A stretch of DNA of 64,000 bases from Akkermansia muciniphila (GTDB taxonomy: Bacteria; Verrucomicrobiota; Verrucomicrobiia; Verrucomicrobiales; Akkermansiaceae), in contig NZ_JABDHQ010000008.1 in the NCBI RefSeq assembly GCF_018709685.1, positions 62,001-126,000 on the forward strand, given 5' to 3'. The position numbers were made by a program, and so were the translations under genes. Shown in pieces: positions 8,985 to 54,423 of the stretch; position 1 is the stretch's first letter, and each line of letters starts with the position of its first letter. The notes below the pieces were generated by a model that was given only the letters and a program-made list of their open reading frames with translations, was not told the DNA's origin and made no database searches.

Positions 8985-9190
8985 TCCCGCGCCGTACTCC
9001 GAAGAAAGACGGCCCCGGCAACGGCGAAAACAGGGAGGTATTGCGCCGTTGCCTCTGCCTCCGGAAAAACTTTATCCCCCCTCTCCACCGGGCGGTTCCA
9101 TAACCGCCGCGCAACTGGAAGGGGGACGCTCCCGCCGCGCGGAACCGTCCCCCCCCTTATTTCCTTGTTTCAGTTCCCTGGCGAGTCCTT
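8985..9190. other. Convergent intergenic region with GC-rich hairpin
   Basis: Between the convergent protease and autotransporter genes. It contains an inverted repeat GGGGGACG (9121-9128) / CGTCCCCC (9146-9153) that could fold into a strong stem-loop and end transcripts from either side, although no clear T run follows it. No other gene is seen here. Confidence 0.45.
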
Positions 9191-12082
9191 CTAGAAGCTC
9201 CGGGACACTCCCGCGTTTACCCGGTGGTACACCGAGCTTCCTCTCACCTCCAGGCCGTAGCCCCCGTACACGCTCCAGCGCTCATTGCATTGCAGGGACG
9301 TGTTGTACTCCGCACGCAAGCCGTGACGTTCCGGGCTCACCGCCCTCCCCCTCCAGCTCATGTCGCTGTACGGGCTGTACACCGTTCCGCCAGGCACGTC
9401 CTGCAGGGCGTCCCCCACGTAGGACAGCCGCAGTGACTGCTCCCACGGCCTTCCCTTCCATTCGTCCGTCCTGCCTATTTCCAGACCCACGGGAATGGAC
9501 AGGCGCCTCAGCGTCGCCCCTCCGAAATCGCGGCCGTAACCGCCCTGCTCCCGGAAGGCGTCCTGACTGCCGTGCGTGAATTCCACCCTCACGAACGGAG
9601 TCAGCCTCCACCCTCCGGCATAGTCCGCCGTCCGGGACACTTCCAGCTGCGCCAGCCATGTCTGGTTGTTCCATTTGCCCGTCGAGGACGGCGCTCCGCT
9701 CAGGCGGCTGTCCATCTTGTTGTGCGTCTCCGCCCACGTCAGGCTTCCCTTGAAGGTCCAGCGGGCCTGCTTGCTTTCTTCCAGCAGACGGCCCCAGTAC
9801 AGGGAGCCCATCCGGGTGTCCTGCGTGTTCCGGCCCTGGAAGTCCCGGCTCTTGGAATGCCCGTAGATTTGTCCGAAGGCAATCCCCCAGATGCCGCTGT
9901 TAGCGCCAAATCCGCTGTCCGCCCCAACGGAGTAACCGCCCCCGTTGTAGTCGTAGCCGTCCACGCCTCCCCGGCTGCGCTGCCGGGCGAAGTCGCCCAG
10001 GCCCATGCCCCAGAGGTCGCGGGAGTGCTTGTCGGCCAGACGGAAGGCGTTCAGCCGGGAGAGGACGTTGCCGCCCAGGGCCGCCGCGTTGGAGGCCGAG
10101 CTCCAGAGGGAGTTGAAGGCCAGTTCCCCGGCCAGTTCCGGGTCTACCTGGCTGATGGAGCCTCCGTCCGCCTTCCAGACCAGCTGGAGCTGTTCGGCGT
10201 AGCCGTCCCCGTCGGCGTCCACCCACTGGTGGCTCCAGGTTCCCGTGTAGGAGTAGGGGGAATCCACCCGGTCCGTTCCCGTGGCCTGGGAGACGGCACC
10301 TTCAAAGTCTCCTTCAAGGGTGTGTTCCGCGTCCGTCAGCACGTGGAAGACGCGGTCCTGCCTCCAGGAGCGGTCCGCGTAGAAGAAGGAAGCGTTTTCC
10401 CCCGTGTCCGCCACGCCGATGAGGCCACCGGCTGTGAAGGATTCCAGCGCGGAGAGCGTCAAGCCCGGCCCGAAGCCCCGCCCAGCCTGGAGCTGGTGGC
10501 GCATGTCGAAGGTGAAGCCGCGGGAGAAGTCAGCGGTGTGGGCGTTAATGAAGGCGCTTTCCCCCGGGCGCAGGACGGCGTCAGGGCCGGAGAGGGTAAA
10601 GATGTCGGCGTTGGCGGTACTTCCTCCGGTGATTTCCAGCACGCCTTTCTCTACGGTCAGGCTTGATCTATCATCTACTTTGCTGTGGTCCAAGCTCCTG
10701 CCGAAGACGACGTCATGTTCCAGCACGAGGGTTCCGCCGTAGAGGGTGGTCTGGGCTCTAAACTCATTGTACCGGCTGGCAATAAGGCGGGCCTCTTCCC
10801 CCTGGTAGAGCTCGCCGCTGAAGACGATGGTTCCGTTCGTGTCGTGGGCGGTTCCCTCTCCGTCCGTGTAGCGGTTAAACGTAAAAGTTGTTTGACCGTG
10901 TGAATCCGCGGTGATGACCGGGTCGTTGAAGCGGACTTCGCGCCCCTGCGCCGCAGCAAGCGTCAGCTGGGCATCTCCCCCAACAATGTAAATGGCATTG
11001 GCGATGCCGTTTTCCACGGAGGAACCGGCGCTATTAAAAGTGAAGGTGCCTCCGGTCATGTTGCCGCTGAAGAGCACGTCCTTCGTCAGGGCGTAGAAGT
11101 TGAGCTTACTATCATATCCAGCCCAAATAGCTCCCCCGTCCATAGTCGCGTAATTTTCGACAAATAAGGCTCCATCTCTGAAAGTCAGACTACCATTCGC
11201 AGCGTGGATAATCGCTCCGCCATGGGCGCCGTTCAATCCAGAAGCTTTATTTCTGACGAAAACGGCGTTGCTTCCTATAGTGATTGAACCTGTGTTGTAA
11301 ATGGCTCCACCATAGACAAAGCCACCACCCAAGGAGGAAGAGAAGCTTAAATTATCGGAAAAGGTAGCATTGTCTCCTATGGCAAGATGCCCCCCGTCAG
11401 CGTTGTAAATCACTCCTCCATATATGTCAGTATCTTGAGAGGTCGCAATCATATTGCTGGAGAAGGTAGCGTCGTTCCCTATGGTCAGGCGTTGTCCGGC
11501 ATTATAAATCAATCCAGAAATATCCACGAAGGGCGCTCCTCCAATATGGGTATTCTTGTCAAAAACAACACCATTTCCCAGCGTCAGGGGACCGTCTGAT
11601 GCTATAAATGCTTTTCCGTAACTGCCTCCCGTAAATTGAACACGGCCCGTTATTTCCAGAGAAGAAACTTGGAGTTCCGCTCCCGTGATGGGCTCAGTGA
11701 AATTGCTCCAGATGATGGCATCCATCTCCAGCGCTACATTGCCTTGCAGCTGAGTTCCATCATACAGGCTCTCGCCAGAGGCCAGGTTGACCAGGTCTAT
11801 GGTACGGAACGTATCCGGATCATTGGAACGGAAATTGACGGCAGCCGTCAGACTGCCGGTCAACGAGGAGTCGTCATTGTACAAGACAACGGTATCCCCG
11901 GAAGCCAGCACGCCGGAAGCGGCCAGTTCCTGAAGCGTCCCGTACACGTTTCTGCTTGAGTCGGTTGCCTGGGAGGCATCCACTATGAATTCCGCCGCAG
12001 ATGCGGAAGTGGCCAGCGTTACTGAAAACAAAAGATGTCCCAGCAAAAAGCGGCGCAACGGCAATGGAAGAACAAGTCTCAT
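9191..12082 (-). CDS. Autotransporter-type outer membrane protein with Pmp-like FxxN/GGAI repeats
   Basis: A 963-residue surface protein. The N terminus has a basic, then hydrophobic signal peptide ending at SASAA (about residue 30). Residues about 170-350 hold six FxxN motifs (FDKN174, FSSN207, FSDN241, FVRN275, FVEN307, FSGN338) spaced 31-34 residues apart, with GGAI or GGVI motifs at about 222, 258, 288 and 316. This is the signature of chlamydial polymorphic membrane proteins and predicts a right-handed beta-helix passenger. Residues about 690-963 form an autotransporter beta-barrel with Tyr/Trp-rich alternating strands, ending in the C-terminal Phe expected for BAM recognition. Adhesion to mucus or host is inference. 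A sigma-70 promoter lies just upstream (12112-12140). Confidence 0.93.
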   Translation of the reverse strand: MRLVLPLPLRRFLLGHLLFSVTLATSASAAEFIVDASQATDSSRNVYGTLQELAASGVLASGDTVVLYNDDSSLTGSLTAAVNFRSNDPDTFRTIDLVNLASGESLYDGTQLQGNVALEMDAIIWSNFTEPITGAELQVSSLEITGRVQFTGGSYGKAFIASDGPLTLGNGVVFDKNTHIGGAPFVDISGLIYNAGQRLTIGNDATFSSNMIATSQDTDIYGGVIYNADGGHLAIGDNATFSDNLSFSSSLGGGFVYGGAIYNTGSITIGSNAVFVRNKASGLNGAHGGAIIHAANGSLTFRDGALFVENYATMDGGAIWAGYDSKLNFYALTKDVLFSGNMTGGTFTFNSAGSSVENGIANAIYIVGGDAQLTLAAAQGREVRFNDPVITADSHGQTTFTFNRYTDGEGTAHDTNGTIVFSGELYQGEEARLIASRYNEFRAQTTLYGGTLVLEHDVVFGRSLDHSKVDDRSSLTVEKGVLEITGGSTANADIFTLSGPDAVLRPGESAFINAHTADFSRGFTFDMRHQLQAGRGFGPGLTLSALESFTAGGLIGVADTGENASFFYADRSWRQDRVFHVLTDAEHTLEGDFEGAVSQATGTDRVDSPYSYTGTWSHQWVDADGDGYAEQLQLVWKADGGSISQVDPELAGELAFNSLWSSASNAAALGGNVLSRLNAFRLADKHSRDLWGMGLGDFARQRSRGGVDGYDYNGGGYSVGADSGFGANSGIWGIAFGQIYGHSKSRDFQGRNTQDTRMGSLYWGRLLEESKQARWTFKGSLTWAETHNKMDSRLSGAPSSTGKWNNQTWLAQLEVSRTADYAGGWRLTPFVRVEFTHGSQDAFREQGGYGRDFGGATLRRLSIPVGLEIGRTDEWKGRPWEQSLRLSYVGDALQDVPGGTVYSPYSDMSWRGRAVSPERHGLRAEYNTSLQCNERWSVYGGYGLEVRGSSVYHRVNAGVSRSF

Positions 12083-12111
12083 TTTTAAGTAGTGATTAAT
12101 TTGAAAAGCCG

Positions 12112-12140
12112 CTAATAGTGTTCTAACAATCTTTTGTCAA
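12112..12140 (-). promoter_or_regulatory. Sigma-70-type promoter of the autotransporter gene
   Basis: On the minus strand, a consensus -35 TTGACA (12140-12135) is followed after exactly 17 bases by TATTAG (12117-12112). Transcription would start near 12105, giving a leader of about 23 bases before the ATG at 12082. It is the best sigma-70 match noticed in the window. Confidence 0.7.
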
Positions 12141-12469
12141 CCCTATCGGTTTAATAGGAATTTCATGCCGCCATGAAAAACGCATAGCTTATGAATAACC
12201 TAATATATTAATAATTAAAACGTTACCACCCACCCCCCCACAAGACAGAGATGGGCTACTCTACTTCTGGTCTTTTTTGAGAAGCGCATTTTTTTGAGAT
12301 GAATGGGATATTTTTAAGGCTCTCCCGGTCAAGACTCAGCCTTAACAGCGGATAACAATATACCTGTCAATAATCCTCCCGCGGCCTTTGCATGGAGGAA
12401 AATAAGCGTGCTCCGGCATCTCTATTCCGGCAGCTTTCAAGAAAAGTTTTCCGCAGCTGGAATCCTGCC
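12141..12469. other. A+T-rich intergenic stretch with inverted repeat
   Basis: No gene is supported here. It lies downstream of the RND permease and upstream of the autotransporter promoter. It holds an 8-bp inverted repeat TTAAGGCT (12314-12321) / AGCCTTAA (12338-12345) with 16 bases between the arms, which could be an operator or part of the RND transcript's 3' end. A C-run (12231-12239) is also present. Confidence 0.4.
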
Positions 12470-15400
12470 CTATGCTTCTTCCGGTTGGTCCGTTTTCCTC
12501 TTTCCTGCCGTCAGGCGGAAGAAGAGGGGAACCAGGAAGATCGCCAGCAGGGTGGCCGTAATGATGCCGCCCAGCACCCCCGTGCCTACGGCGCGCTGCG
12601 CGCCCGCCGCCGCCCCGTGGGCGAAGGCCAGCGGAACCACCCCGGCGCCGAACGCCAGGGAGGTCATAAGGATGGGCCTCAGGCGCAGCTTGGCGGCGGT
12701 CACGGTAGCTTCCATCACGCCCATTCCCTCCCGGTAGAATTCCTTGGCCACTTCTACAATGAGGATGGCATTCTTGGCGGAAAGGCCGATGGTCGTGATC
12801 AGGCCCACCTTGAAGTAGATGTCATTGGGCATGTCGCGCAGGAAAACGGCCAGCAGGGCCCCGAGCAGGCCCAGGGGCACCACCAGGATCACGGCCAGCG
12901 GAATGGACCAGCTTTCATAGAGCGCCGCCAGCACCAGGAAGACAATCAGGATGGACAGGGAGAACAGCAGGGTGGCCTGGGAGCCTGCCAGCTGTTCTTC
13001 ATAAGACTGCCCCGTCCATTCAAAGCCTACGCCCTGCGGCAGGGAGGCGGTAATCCGTTCCAGGGCCTTCATGGCGTCTCCGCTGCTTTTGCCGGGCGCA
13101 GCGGAGCCGTTGATCGTGAAGGAGGGATAGTTGTTGTAGCGCGTGAGCTGGGGGGGGCCCGCCGTCCAGTCCAACCGGACGAAGGAGGAGAGGGGCAGCA
13201 GCTTCCCCTGGTCATTGCGCACATGCAGGTCTTCAATGTCATTGCCGTTCAGGCGGCTTTTCCCGTCCGCCTGGACAATGACGCGGCGCACCTGGCTGCC
13301 GTGCATGAAGTCCCCCACGTAGCTGGACCCGAACATGACGGCCAGCGAGTTGCTGATTTCCGTGATGGGCACCCCCATGGAGAAGGCTTTTTCCCGGTCA
13401 ATGGAGACGTGCAGGCGCGGCGTGTCCGCCTGGCCGGAGAAATAAACGCCCGCCAGGTTGGGGTCCGCATTGGCGCGGGCCAGAAGTTCGTCACGGGCTT
13501 CCACCAGACGGTCATAGCCCAGGCCGCCCCTGTCCTGAAGGCGGAAGTCAAACCCGGAGGTGTTGCCCAGTTCCGGCAGAGCGGGCATGTTCAGGGCCAT
13601 GACGAGCATCTGGCGGTCCCCGGCAAAGCGCATGTTGACGCGGTCAATGATTTCCTGGGCGGAGTTGCCCGGCCCGGTGCGTTCATCCCATTTTTTCAGG
13701 CCGATGAACAGGATGCCCATGTTGGTGCCGGAGCCCATGAAGCTGAAGCCGCCCACGGAGTAGGCGTATTCCACGGGTTCATGTTTCATCAGGTAGTCCT
13801 CCACCTCGCGCAGACGGGTGCTCGTCTCCTCCTGGAGCGTTCCGGCAGGAAGGGCCACCATCGTCATGAAGTTGCCCTGGTCTTCTTCCGGCAGGAAGGA
13901 GGTGGGGAGCGTCATGTACAGGTACCCGGCCCCCGCAATGATGAGCACATACAGGAACAGGGAGCGCACGGGGCGCTTGATAATTCCGGTCACGGCGCTG
14001 CCGTACCGGTCCGTGGACCGGTGGATTGTCCTGTTGAACCATCCGAAGAACCCCTTCTTCTCCTGGTGCTCCACGGAGGAAGCTTTCAGCATGGCGGCGC
14101 AAAGCGCCGGAGTCAGGGAAAGGGCCAGGAAGGCGGAGAAGGAGATGGAGACAATGAGCGTTACGGCAAACTGGCGGTAGATGTTGCCCACTGCCCCGCT
14201 GAAGAACGCCATGGGGACGAAGACCGCCACCAGCACGGTGGTGATGCCCACGATGGCGCCGCCGATCTGCTTCATGGCCTTGACCGTAGCGCGCCGGGCA
14301 TCCAGCCCTTCCTCCATCATGATGCGCTCCACGTTTTCCACCACCACAATGGCGTCATCCACCAGAATGCCGATGCTGAGCACCATGCCGAACATGGTAA
14401 GCATGTTGATGGAGAAGCCGGAGAGCCACATCACGGCAAAGGTTCCCAGCAGGGCGACGGGAACGACGAGCGTCGGGATGAGGGTGGCCCGGAAGTTCTG
14501 GAGGAACAGGAACATGACCAGGAATACCAGGATAATGGCTTCCACCAGGGTGGAGATGACCTTCTGGATGGAGATTTCCACGAAATGGGTGGTTTCATAC
14601 GGAATCTGGTAGGAGACCCCGGCAGGAAAATCCCGGGCGAGTTCGTCCATCTTGGCCTTGAGCAGGCCCATGGTTTCCACGGCGTTGGAGCCCGGAGCCA
14701 TCTTGATGGCCATGCCGGTGGCAGTCTGCCCGTTGCAACGGGAGAAGAACGCGTAGCTGTTGGCGCCCAGCTCCACCCGCGCCACGTCCCCCAGCTTGAC
14801 GGAAGAACCGTCTGAAAGAGTCCTCAGGGCAATGGAGGCGAATTCCTCCGGCGTGCGGAAGGCTTCCTCCGCCACCACGGTGGCATTGATGGGGGCGGAG
14901 TCGGAAACCGCCGCTCCGCCAATGTCGCCGATGATGATGCGCTCGCTCTGGGCGGCCACGGCGGTCACAATGTCCGTGGGCGTGAGCCCCAGCGCTTCCA
15001 GCTTCTCCGGATCAGGCCAGATGCGCATGGACGTTTCAGCGCCGAACAGCTCCACGCGCCCGACGCCCTTCACGCGCTTCAGTTCCGGGATGATGCGGGC
15101 GGAGGCCCATTCCCCCAGCTCCGTATCATTCAGGGCCCCCGTGGAGGAAAGGGAGATCATCGCCTGAATGTTGTTGGAGGATTTTTCCACGAACACCCCT
15201 TCCCTCCGGACGGATTCCGGCAGGCGGGATTCCACGATTTTCAGGCGGTTCTGGACTTCCACGGCGGCAATGTCCGGGTCCGTCCCCTGCTCAAAGGTGG
15301 CGATGATTTCCACCATGCCGCTGGAGCTGCTGCTGGCGGACATGTACAGGAGTCCCGGCGCGCCATTGATTTCCCTTTCAATGACGGCGGTGACGGCTTC

Positions 15401-52710: not shown

Positions 52711-53406
52711 ATGAAGAATATCCTCTGGATTTTCCTCTTCAGCATACTCATGCTGCCAGAGAGCCCTGCCGCGCTGGCTTCATCTGAATCAGACATACAG
52801 ACACTACTTTCTGAGGGACGCTCCTCCTTCATTACCGGTAAAGCCCGGGAAGTCATGCGCAGTCGGCTTGACTCCGGCCCGCTTACTATCGAAAAAATAC
52901 GAGAACTGATTCATTCTCCACAAGTAGCGTCACTGTGCTACCTGCACCAATTTTTCAATACTGCCGAAGATGGCAAGCCGTTCACTCAGGAGGAACTCAA
53001 GGATCAGGTCTTCAGGAAATGGCTTTCCAGCCATCCGGAAGTATTTAAAATGCTCGCCCAATCCGGTCCTGCCAGCAAAAATACCCTTTCCGTTTTTTAC
53101 CGAATCTGGAATACCAGCGATCAAAAGCTCAATTCTGTTGAACTCAGCATGGCGCTTGGAGCCGCCCTTGTTGCGAACACCTTCTCTCCCGAGGAATGCA
53201 TCGCCAAATTTAATTTCTCCCGGGATTCCCATCACCACGCCAGATGCTATCCACAGGCAGACACCTTGCAACCCTGGGAATGGGCCATTATATTCCGGGG
53301 TAAAGACAGCCTTGAAGACCTCGCATGGGCACAGCAATTCATTGAGGGGAAAAAAATCAAACCGGAGAAAGCCGGAAGCAGATTGCAAAAACCATCAATA
53401 ACCTGA
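52711..53406 (+). CDS. Exported protein of unknown function, A+T-rich island
   Basis: A 231-residue protein with signal peptide (MKNILWIFLFSILMLPESPAALA, about 23). It is rich in helices, with polar residues typical of a periplasmic soluble protein. The segment about 145-215 (ELSMALGAALVANTFSPEECIAKFNF...LQPWEWAIIF.GKDSLEDLAWAQQFI) reminds me of the N-terminal module in verrucomicrobial transglutaminase-like proteins, but the transglutaminase domain itself is absent, so this could be a truncated relative. Codon use is A+T-richer than neighbours, suggesting recent acquisition. Function unknown; followed after 8 bases by a second secreted ORF. Confidence 0.65.
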   Translation: MKNILWIFLFSILMLPESPAALASSESDIQTLLSEGRSSFITGKAREVMRSRLDSGPLTIEKIRELIHSPQVASLCYLHQFFNTAEDGKPFTQEELKDQVFRKWLSSHPEVFKMLAQSGPASKNTLSVFYRIWNTSDQKLNSVELSMALGAALVANTFSPEECIAKFNFSRDSHHHARCYPQADTLQPWEWAIIFRGKDSLEDLAWAQQFIEGKKIKPEKAGSRLQKPSIT

Positions 53407-53414
53407 ACAGAATC

Positions 53415-53867
53415 ATGAAATCTATATTAAATATACTCGCTATATTAATGTCCTGCATGTTGGGGATCGCCAGCCAGATTGAAGCACAGGAAGAGAAGTC
53501 CCGCCAACCAGACAGACAACAGCAAGAAGTTTCTCCTGAGCAGCAAGAAGAAAACAAGGATATCCCAACCATTACAAACCCTGCTGTTTTTAATGAGAAA
53601 GATTTGGATAAGCTTCTGGAAAAACAACGGGAATATGTGAAAAAACATTATCCGGATTACCGAATTGTTGGAGAAGGTCAGGAACAGGATTATTTTGATA
53701 GCCGTCACTATTCGGAGTTTGATCTGAAAAACGAAGATGATGAATGGGTCATGATCATCCGATTCGATATCGAAGAAGCCTATCAGGCCTACATGAAAAA
53801 GCATCAAAAAGAGATAGAACGGGAAGCGGCCAAACTAATCAAGCAGGGTACCATTAAAATTGAATGA
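53415..53867 (+). CDS. Exported charged protein of unknown function
   Basis: A 150-residue protein beginning MKSILNILAILMSCMLGIASQIEA, a signal peptide. The mature part starts with a Gln/Glu/Pro-rich segment (EEKSRQPDRQQQEVSPEQQEE) likely disordered, then a mixed alpha/beta region with acidic patches (YFDSRHYSEFDLKNEDDEWVMIIRFDIEEAYQAYMKKHQKEIEREAAK). No family recognised. It lies 8 bases after the preceding gene on the same strand, so the two are probably one transcript. A+T-rich codon use is shared with that gene. Confidence 0.62.
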   Translation: MKSILNILAILMSCMLGIASQIEAQEEKSRQPDRQQQEVSPEQQEENKDIPTITNPAVFNEKDLDKLLEKQREYVKKHYPDYRIVGEGQEQDYFDSRHYSEFDLKNEDDEWVMIIRFDIEEAYQAYMKKHQKEIEREAAKLIKQGTIKIE

Positions 53868-53954
53868 TAAGCCGTTTCCTATAAAACAGAAGAAGCAATA
53901 ACTAACAACCCGGTGTTGGAATACGCACGCCGTCTGTCAAACAGACGGCGTGCG
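53868..53954. repeat. Perfect 14-bp hairpin
   Basis: CGCACGCCGTCTGT (53924-53937) and ACAGACGGCGTGCG (53941-53954) form a perfect stem around a 3-base CAA loop. It is G+C-rich inside an A+T-rich island and has no T run after it, so it is not a classical terminator. It may protect the 3' end of the preceding transcript or be a repeat element; no second copy was noticed in this window. Confidence 0.7.
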
Positions 53955-54423
53955 GCCGTACAGGTACTTGGCTTATTTTTCTGGAAAGAATGCTGCCAAT
54001 AGAGCATGACACTCCTCCGCTTGCTGATAGTGAGCAGCATGGGTCGAGGTCATGAGGCCTCTCTTCTATCCTGAGCATCATCACTAGAGAGAGACGGACT
54101 TTAGACTCCATGTGGTCATCATTCAAATCATCGCCGAAAGAGGGAATATATAATCCTGCCAGGAACTTCCCGTCACTTATATAGGCGAACTCCTTTCCGC
54201 AGCCGGAGCACACTTTTTGTAATATTCGACATTCCGTTATTTAGAAATGACCATCAGAACCAACTCAACCGGCACAAATACAATTGTGACAAATCTGATT
54301 GATCATTTCCCTGGTTGCATGGCAACCGCATTCATGAAATATTATCGGTCTATCAGCAAATTTCCCAGTGATCAAAGCATTGACATAACATATCAGCCGT
54401 CGAGCTATGCAAAAGGAGTGACT
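53955..54423 (-). pseudogene. Possible remnants of a cysteine-rich coding sequence
   Basis: On the minus strand, two open fragments look like protein but lack starts. One, stopping at 54265, reads ...IIFHECGCHATREMINQ then ICHNCICAG; the other (54240 to 53902) reads ...CRILQKVCSGCGKEFAYISD and then runs on in less protein-like sequence. Both hold C-x-x-C or CGC zinc-ribbon-like motifs, and both sit in frames interrupted by stops. They could be decayed pieces of a zinc-ribbon gene. The + strand ORF 54247-54474 does not look like protein. Otherwise I see no gene from 53955 to 54495. Confidence 0.25.

Follow-up and report, generated by a model that had tools for sequence, protein, structure and literature searches.

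Chlamydial Pmps combine three Pfam models, the Chlamydia PMP repeat (PF02415), the middle domain ChlamPMP_M (PF07548) and the autotransporter barrel (PF03797). They carry a signal peptide, rungs made of FxxN and GGA(I,L,V) motifs with GGA-x(13-18)-FxxN spacing, a middle region ahead of the barrel and a terminal Phe, and they form a multi-gene family with variable passengers. According to PMC11166332, Pmps average 13.6 FxxN and 6.5 GGA motifs, and in their larger repeat most GGA/FxxN pairs lie 14–18 apart. Pmp fragments bearing the tetrapeptides bind human cells (PMC2997323), although structural work argues for burial of the FxxN/GGA motifs themselves (PMC10715098). The same paper gives an invariant Asp in rung 0 as a Pmp feature.

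Two further systems are close to the protein described here. A Pmp-like Akkermansia protein is already known from a 2024 paper (PMC11166332), in whose accessible text the A. glycaniphila pectin-lyase-fold protein A0A1C7PBX1 is a Pmp-like autotransporter of 43 predicted coils and the best match of the Pmp rung model; paralogue mosaics, site polymorphism and a middle domain outside Chlamydia are not described in that text. Escherichia coli YfaL is likewise an autotransporter with PF03797 and carries five PF02415 repeats, but has an AC_1 autochaperone domain and PATR repeats where the family studied here has a ChlamPMP_M-like middle region.

Layout of the gene and chance expectation of its motifs

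The window, meaning the whole 64,000-nucleotide stretch of Akkermansia muciniphila DNA analysed, comes from a genome of 2.86 Mb in 48 contigs and contains a gene on the minus strand whose product is probably an autotransporter of the classical kind (type Va), from a Pmp-like family spread across Akkermansia (Table 1). In common with chlamydial Pmps it has the signal peptide, the spaced rung motifs, a middle region ahead of the barrel, the final Phe and a multi-gene family with variable passengers; it comes from a different phylum, has fewer motifs than the Pmp average and scores below the cut-offs of both Pmp-specific Pfam models. The initial annotation had placed the gene exactly, and its reading of six FxxN motifs 31–34 residues apart, interleaved GGAI/GGVI and an autotransporter barrel ending in Phe was borne out throughout. 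Steps between the six rung FxxN are 33, 34, 34, 32 and 31 residues, with additional FxxN at residues 84, 347, 400 and 725. In a Pfam scan of the protein PF03797 matched residues 690–943 (E 2.2e-39), the C-terminus being SRSF, and another beta-rich stretch lies beyond the rungs, before the middle region.

Table 1. Features of the Pmp-like autotransporter gene and its surroundings (positions in the window).
Feature	Position	Strand	Basis
Segment present in window, replaced by about 195–250 bp in four near relatives	8988..12470	.	site comparison
Pmp-like autotransporter gene, 963 aa + stop	9191..12082	-	ORF and PF03797 match
Autotransporter beta-barrel, residues 690–963, final residue Phe	9194..10015	-	PF03797
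Middle region, residues 471–668	10079..10672	-	relatives' aligned region matches ChlamPMP_M (PF07548); window piece itself without match
FxxN/GGA rung region, residues 165–345 (about)	11048..11590	-	predicted right-handed beta-helix; hypervariable among relatives
FSGN (FxxN, residue 338)	11060..11071	-	motif scan
GGAI (residue 316)	11126..11137	-	motif scan
FVEN (FxxN, residue 307)	11153..11164	-	motif scan
GGAI (residue 288)	11210..11221	-	motif scan
FVRN (FxxN, residue 275)	11249..11260	-	motif scan
GGAI (residue 258)	11300..11311	-	motif scan
FSDN (FxxN, residue 241)	11351..11362	-	motif scan
GGVI (residue 222)	11408..11419	-	motif scan
FSSN (FxxN, residue 207)	11453..11464	-	motif scan
FDKN (FxxN, residue 174)	11552..11563	-	motif scan
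N-terminal cap region, residues 31–128	11699..11992	-	conserved among relatives
Sec-type signal peptide, residues 1–30 (MRLVLPLPLRRFLL...SASAA)	11993..12082	-	by eye; kept in relatives; cleavage site inferred
Promoter-like TTGACA-17 nt-TATTAG, 5' of ATG	12112..12140	-	weak, by eye; not reported by consensus scan

The regularity of the rungs is far beyond chance. The pattern GG[AV][ILV]-x(12,23)-FxxN occurs four times in the protein (shuffle mean 0.012), FxxN-x(4,16)-GG[AV][ILV] four times (0.013) and FxxN-to-FxxN steps of 31–35 residues five times (0.032); the highest count reached in 20,000 shuffles of the passenger was 2, hence these counts were never matched. None of the other window reading frames of at least 150 codons holds more than one such pattern. 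The GGA-x(13-18)-FxxN spacing agrees with that of the larger Pmp repeat in PMC11166332.

Base composition varies along the gene, with G+C down to 0.51 in the passenger (11001–12000) and near 0.64 in the barrel, consistent with a passenger that has a history of its own. Elsewhere in the window G+C falls to 0.45 at 53001–54000, and the ORFs at 52711–53406 and 53415–53867 are without a Pfam match. A G7 run lies on the minus strand at 12233–12239, about 150 bp upstream of the ATG, and an equally long G run is also found upstream of the copy in genome G005. Phase variation through the G7 run was considered and set aside, the run not lying between the promoter-like boxes and not being found upstream in most relatives; it is possible, with no direct sign of it.

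Predicted fold of the rung region

AlphaFold2 run on the whole protein with an alignment of three sequences gave a mean pLDDT of 42 and did not resolve the middle region and barrel, and a 402-residue piece (residues 129–530, also with three aligned sequences) was modelled instead. Its rung blocks reach pLDDT 58–90, each rung running in the order LxIG, the ATF of FxxN, a short strand after the N, a loop, and GG(A/V)I; this FxxN/loop/GGA order agrees with the Pmp rung described in PMC10715098. The initial annotation had named structure prediction as the check on a beta-helix, and the rungs were indeed modelled as a right-handed parallel beta-helix of the pectin-lyase-like kind, with predicted stacked strands at about 30 residues per turn. 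With VIA-align the best matches, at Z about 15, were pectate lyases and other right-handed beta-helices of this sort, among them SRRP adhesins and the autotransporter Vag8. Plain Foldseek of the model against the PDB and viral models returned no E below 0.001, and sequence searches of the PDB, by the window protein as by the family profile, turned up no relative. As these Foldseek E-values are weak, the rest of the protein is not resolved and AlphaFold2 is prone to over-predicting beta-solenoids (PMC11795689), a right-handed beta-helix is the likely fold of the rungs but is not proven.

A divergent member of a Pmp-like family

The window protein falls short of both Pmp-specific models. Against PF02415 its best score is 15.6 bits versus a cut-off of 20.6, so that the match goes unreported in whole-protein scans, and neither the protein nor its isolated middle piece matches PF07548 at E<=1. 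The Pmp repeat profile proposed in the initial annotation thus fails on the protein itself and succeeds on its kin, 25 of 28 aligned Akkermansia relatives matching PF02415 at E<=1 (best 5e-69); the barrel is found in 26 of the 28 (E<=1). PF07548 matches 17/28 whole relative proteins at E<=1 and 16 of 20 isolated middle regions (best 3.2e-8), in the same place directly before the barrel, which makes the middle region homologous to PF07548 through its aligned relatives. The window's middle piece is 38–62% identical to that of most members, 85–86% to that of the paralogue pair in genome G006 and 27% to the most distant. No match to AC_1 (PF18883) was found between passenger and barrel in a Pfam scan of the window protein, and plasmid and IMG/VR searches yielded no relative of it.

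Judged by its sequence, the window protein is therefore a divergent, Pmp-like family member, and we stop short of classing it among the Pmps proper because it fails both Pmp Pfam models. The chlamydial Pmp architecture claimed for it holds in its predicted beta-helix rungs, its barrel and the PF07548-matching middle of its relatives, though not in model matches of its own, and a role in infection is shown only for Pmps. The window protein has six canonical rungs. A longer member is a 1638-aa protein of genome G002 (L105) with 37 FxxN and 32 GGA-type motifs, which resembles A0A1C7PBX1 and is possibly the A. glycaniphila protein treated in PMC11166332.

Could the likeness to Pmps have arisen without ancestry, the FxxN/GGA rung being simply a common solution to building a right-handed beta-helix? 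Such rungs do occur in YfaL, in a PEP-CTERM protein from the genome that contains the window, in archaea and in Trichomonas (PMC10715098), and the miss of both Pmp models by the window protein points the same way. However, the relatives' middle region is non-repetitive and matches PF07548 at the same pre-barrel place, and matches over the PF07548 cut-off come from four Akkermansia genomes and from none of 14 control genomes, which makes convergence alone an unlikely account.

Distribution of rungs and middle region

A census of 383 verrucomicrobial genomes from 191 genera of the phylum Verrucomicrobiota gave different results for rungs and middle region. PF02415 was over cut-off in 117 genomes and 62 genera, whereas the Akkermansia middle-region profile matched one genus only, Akkermansia itself (13 genomes). 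Full-length PF07548 matches were likewise confined to Akkermansia, those beyond it being weak and partial (profile 2–95) and looking like generic beta-helix.

In the window's own genome, a 1127-aa protein on contig C18 (L027:918-4298) carries six PF02415 stretches and part of the middle region but ends in a PEP-CTERM tail and lacks a barrel, hence the same rungs sit on two different anchors within one genome. The FxxN/GGA rung is a widespread module, given its presence in YfaL, in L027, in 62 of 191 genera and, as reported, in Methanobrevibacter, Trichomonas and Phycisphaerae (PMC10715098). The initial annotation took motifs of this kind in unrelated autotransporters as a ground for refuting its reading, and for the repeat alone that is the case, as YfaL with its five PF02415 repeats shows; the middle region is the more diagnostic part.

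The initial annotation had read the architecture as an old adhesin shared across the PVC superphylum, that is, inherited vertically from an ancestor of Chlamydiae and Verrucomicrobia and retained as an adhesin. The resemblance of rungs and middle domain to Pmps, the occurrence of rungs in 62 of the sampled genera and the orthologues in Planctomycetes, Verrucomicrobia or Lentisphaerae of most chlamydial outer-membrane proteins (PMC2811131) would fit such descent, which is nevertheless improbable: the middle-region profile is found in a single genus of the phylum, full-length PF07548 is restricted to Akkermansia, rungs extend far beyond PVC, and within the chlamydiae almost every Pmp belongs to Chlamydiaceae, with Parachlamydiaceae members in only one Pmp cluster (PMC2811131). 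The claim of common PVC inheritance is thus not upheld, and the patchiness of the rung–middle–barrel combination, as far as these profile matches within Verrucomicrobiota show, would be easier to reconcile with lateral transfer or repeated loss than with inheritance from a PVC ancestor.

A probable homogenised chassis beneath a variable cassette

Comparison of paralogues revealed a sharp contrast along the gene. In G006, a complete genome in one contig, a pair of paralogues shares 99% nucleotide identity over the barrel, 97% over the middle region and 51% over the rungs, and at fourfold sites the identities are 0.99, 0.93 and 0.42, respectively. G006 is our main evidence for a mosaic, since the G007 paralogues, whose barrels show 100% identity, lie on contigs that end inside the gene; a misassembly in G006 is unlikely as it is one contig. 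Three paralogues in G009 show a similar but weaker barrel/rung contrast. Two Pmp-like paralogues there are adjacent on one strand (L093), a possible substrate for passenger exchange. The window gene has 91% barrel identity and 49–61% rung identity to the G006 and G007 genes, and no recent exchange partner was seen for it within its own genome (45–77% nucleotide identity throughout to the copy on contig C19).

The unequal synonymous ages along the G006 pair therefore require recombination, and barrel and middle appear to behave as a homogenised chassis beneath a hypervariable rung cassette. It is most improbable that selection by itself, purifying on the barrel and relaxed or positive on the rungs with no paralogue recombination, produced this pattern, for although autotransporter passengers commonly diverge faster than barrels and the fourfold identity of 0.79 between the window and G006a barrels could be plain species divergence, protein selection cannot bring the nearly neutral fourfold sites of one gene pair to 0.99 identity over the barrel and 0.42 over the rungs. 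A variable helix on a constant barrel points to an exchangeable module for attachment or display more than to a superphylum-wide heirloom.

The gene is also polymorphic as a whole. In G009, of the same species, flanks 98–99% identical to those of the window enclose about 250 bp in place of 8988–12470, and the site is likewise empty in G008, G004 and G010. G005, G006 and G007 have a copy adjoining the same downstream gene. The copy in G005, which belongs to the same genus and is not listed as the same species, is split over two reading frames near residue 200 (L091) and looks broken in that genome. Given the chassis-and-cassette pattern, our results suggest that surface display varies from strain to strain in Akkermansia.

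Proposed mechanism and role

We propose that the protein would be exported by Sec and its barrel inserted via the BAM machinery, passing the passenger, which would then fold outward from the middle region into the right-handed beta-helix. Each rung would be held in shape by its buried FxxN and GGA(I/V) motifs; the loops that separate FxxN from GGA are variable and may form a ligand-binding or immune-exposed display surface. Barrel and middle would serve as a conserved chassis, shared and homogenised between paralogues through recombination, and the rungs as a variable cassette, with whole genes gained or lost between strains.

By analogy with Pmps, the protein most likely acts in adhesion, with mucus, epithelium or other bacteria as putative targets. 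Of nine autotransporter proteins detected in A. muciniphila, six reached higher abundance on glucose than on mucin (PMC4960237), which lends no support to a mucin-specific role.

A broader scheme is a tentative possibility, in which gene conversion would unify barrel and middle, rung passengers would be swapped, gained or lost between strains to give adhesive or antigenic variation, and the chassis would also have moved laterally, in either direction, between vertebrate-associated Chlamydiaceae and Akkermansia.

What appears to be new here is the homogenised barrel and middle chassis under hypervariable rungs; our literature search found no paper on the middle domain, mosaic structure or site polymorphism in Akkermansia. 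Work on Pmps has been limited almost entirely to Chlamydia, an obligate intracellular organism in which genetics is difficult. Having these rungs and a related middle region in a beneficial gut bacterium that can be cultured would allow direct tests of what rungs, loops and middle region do, and strain differences in surface display could matter for colonisation by, and host recognition of, Akkermansia strains.
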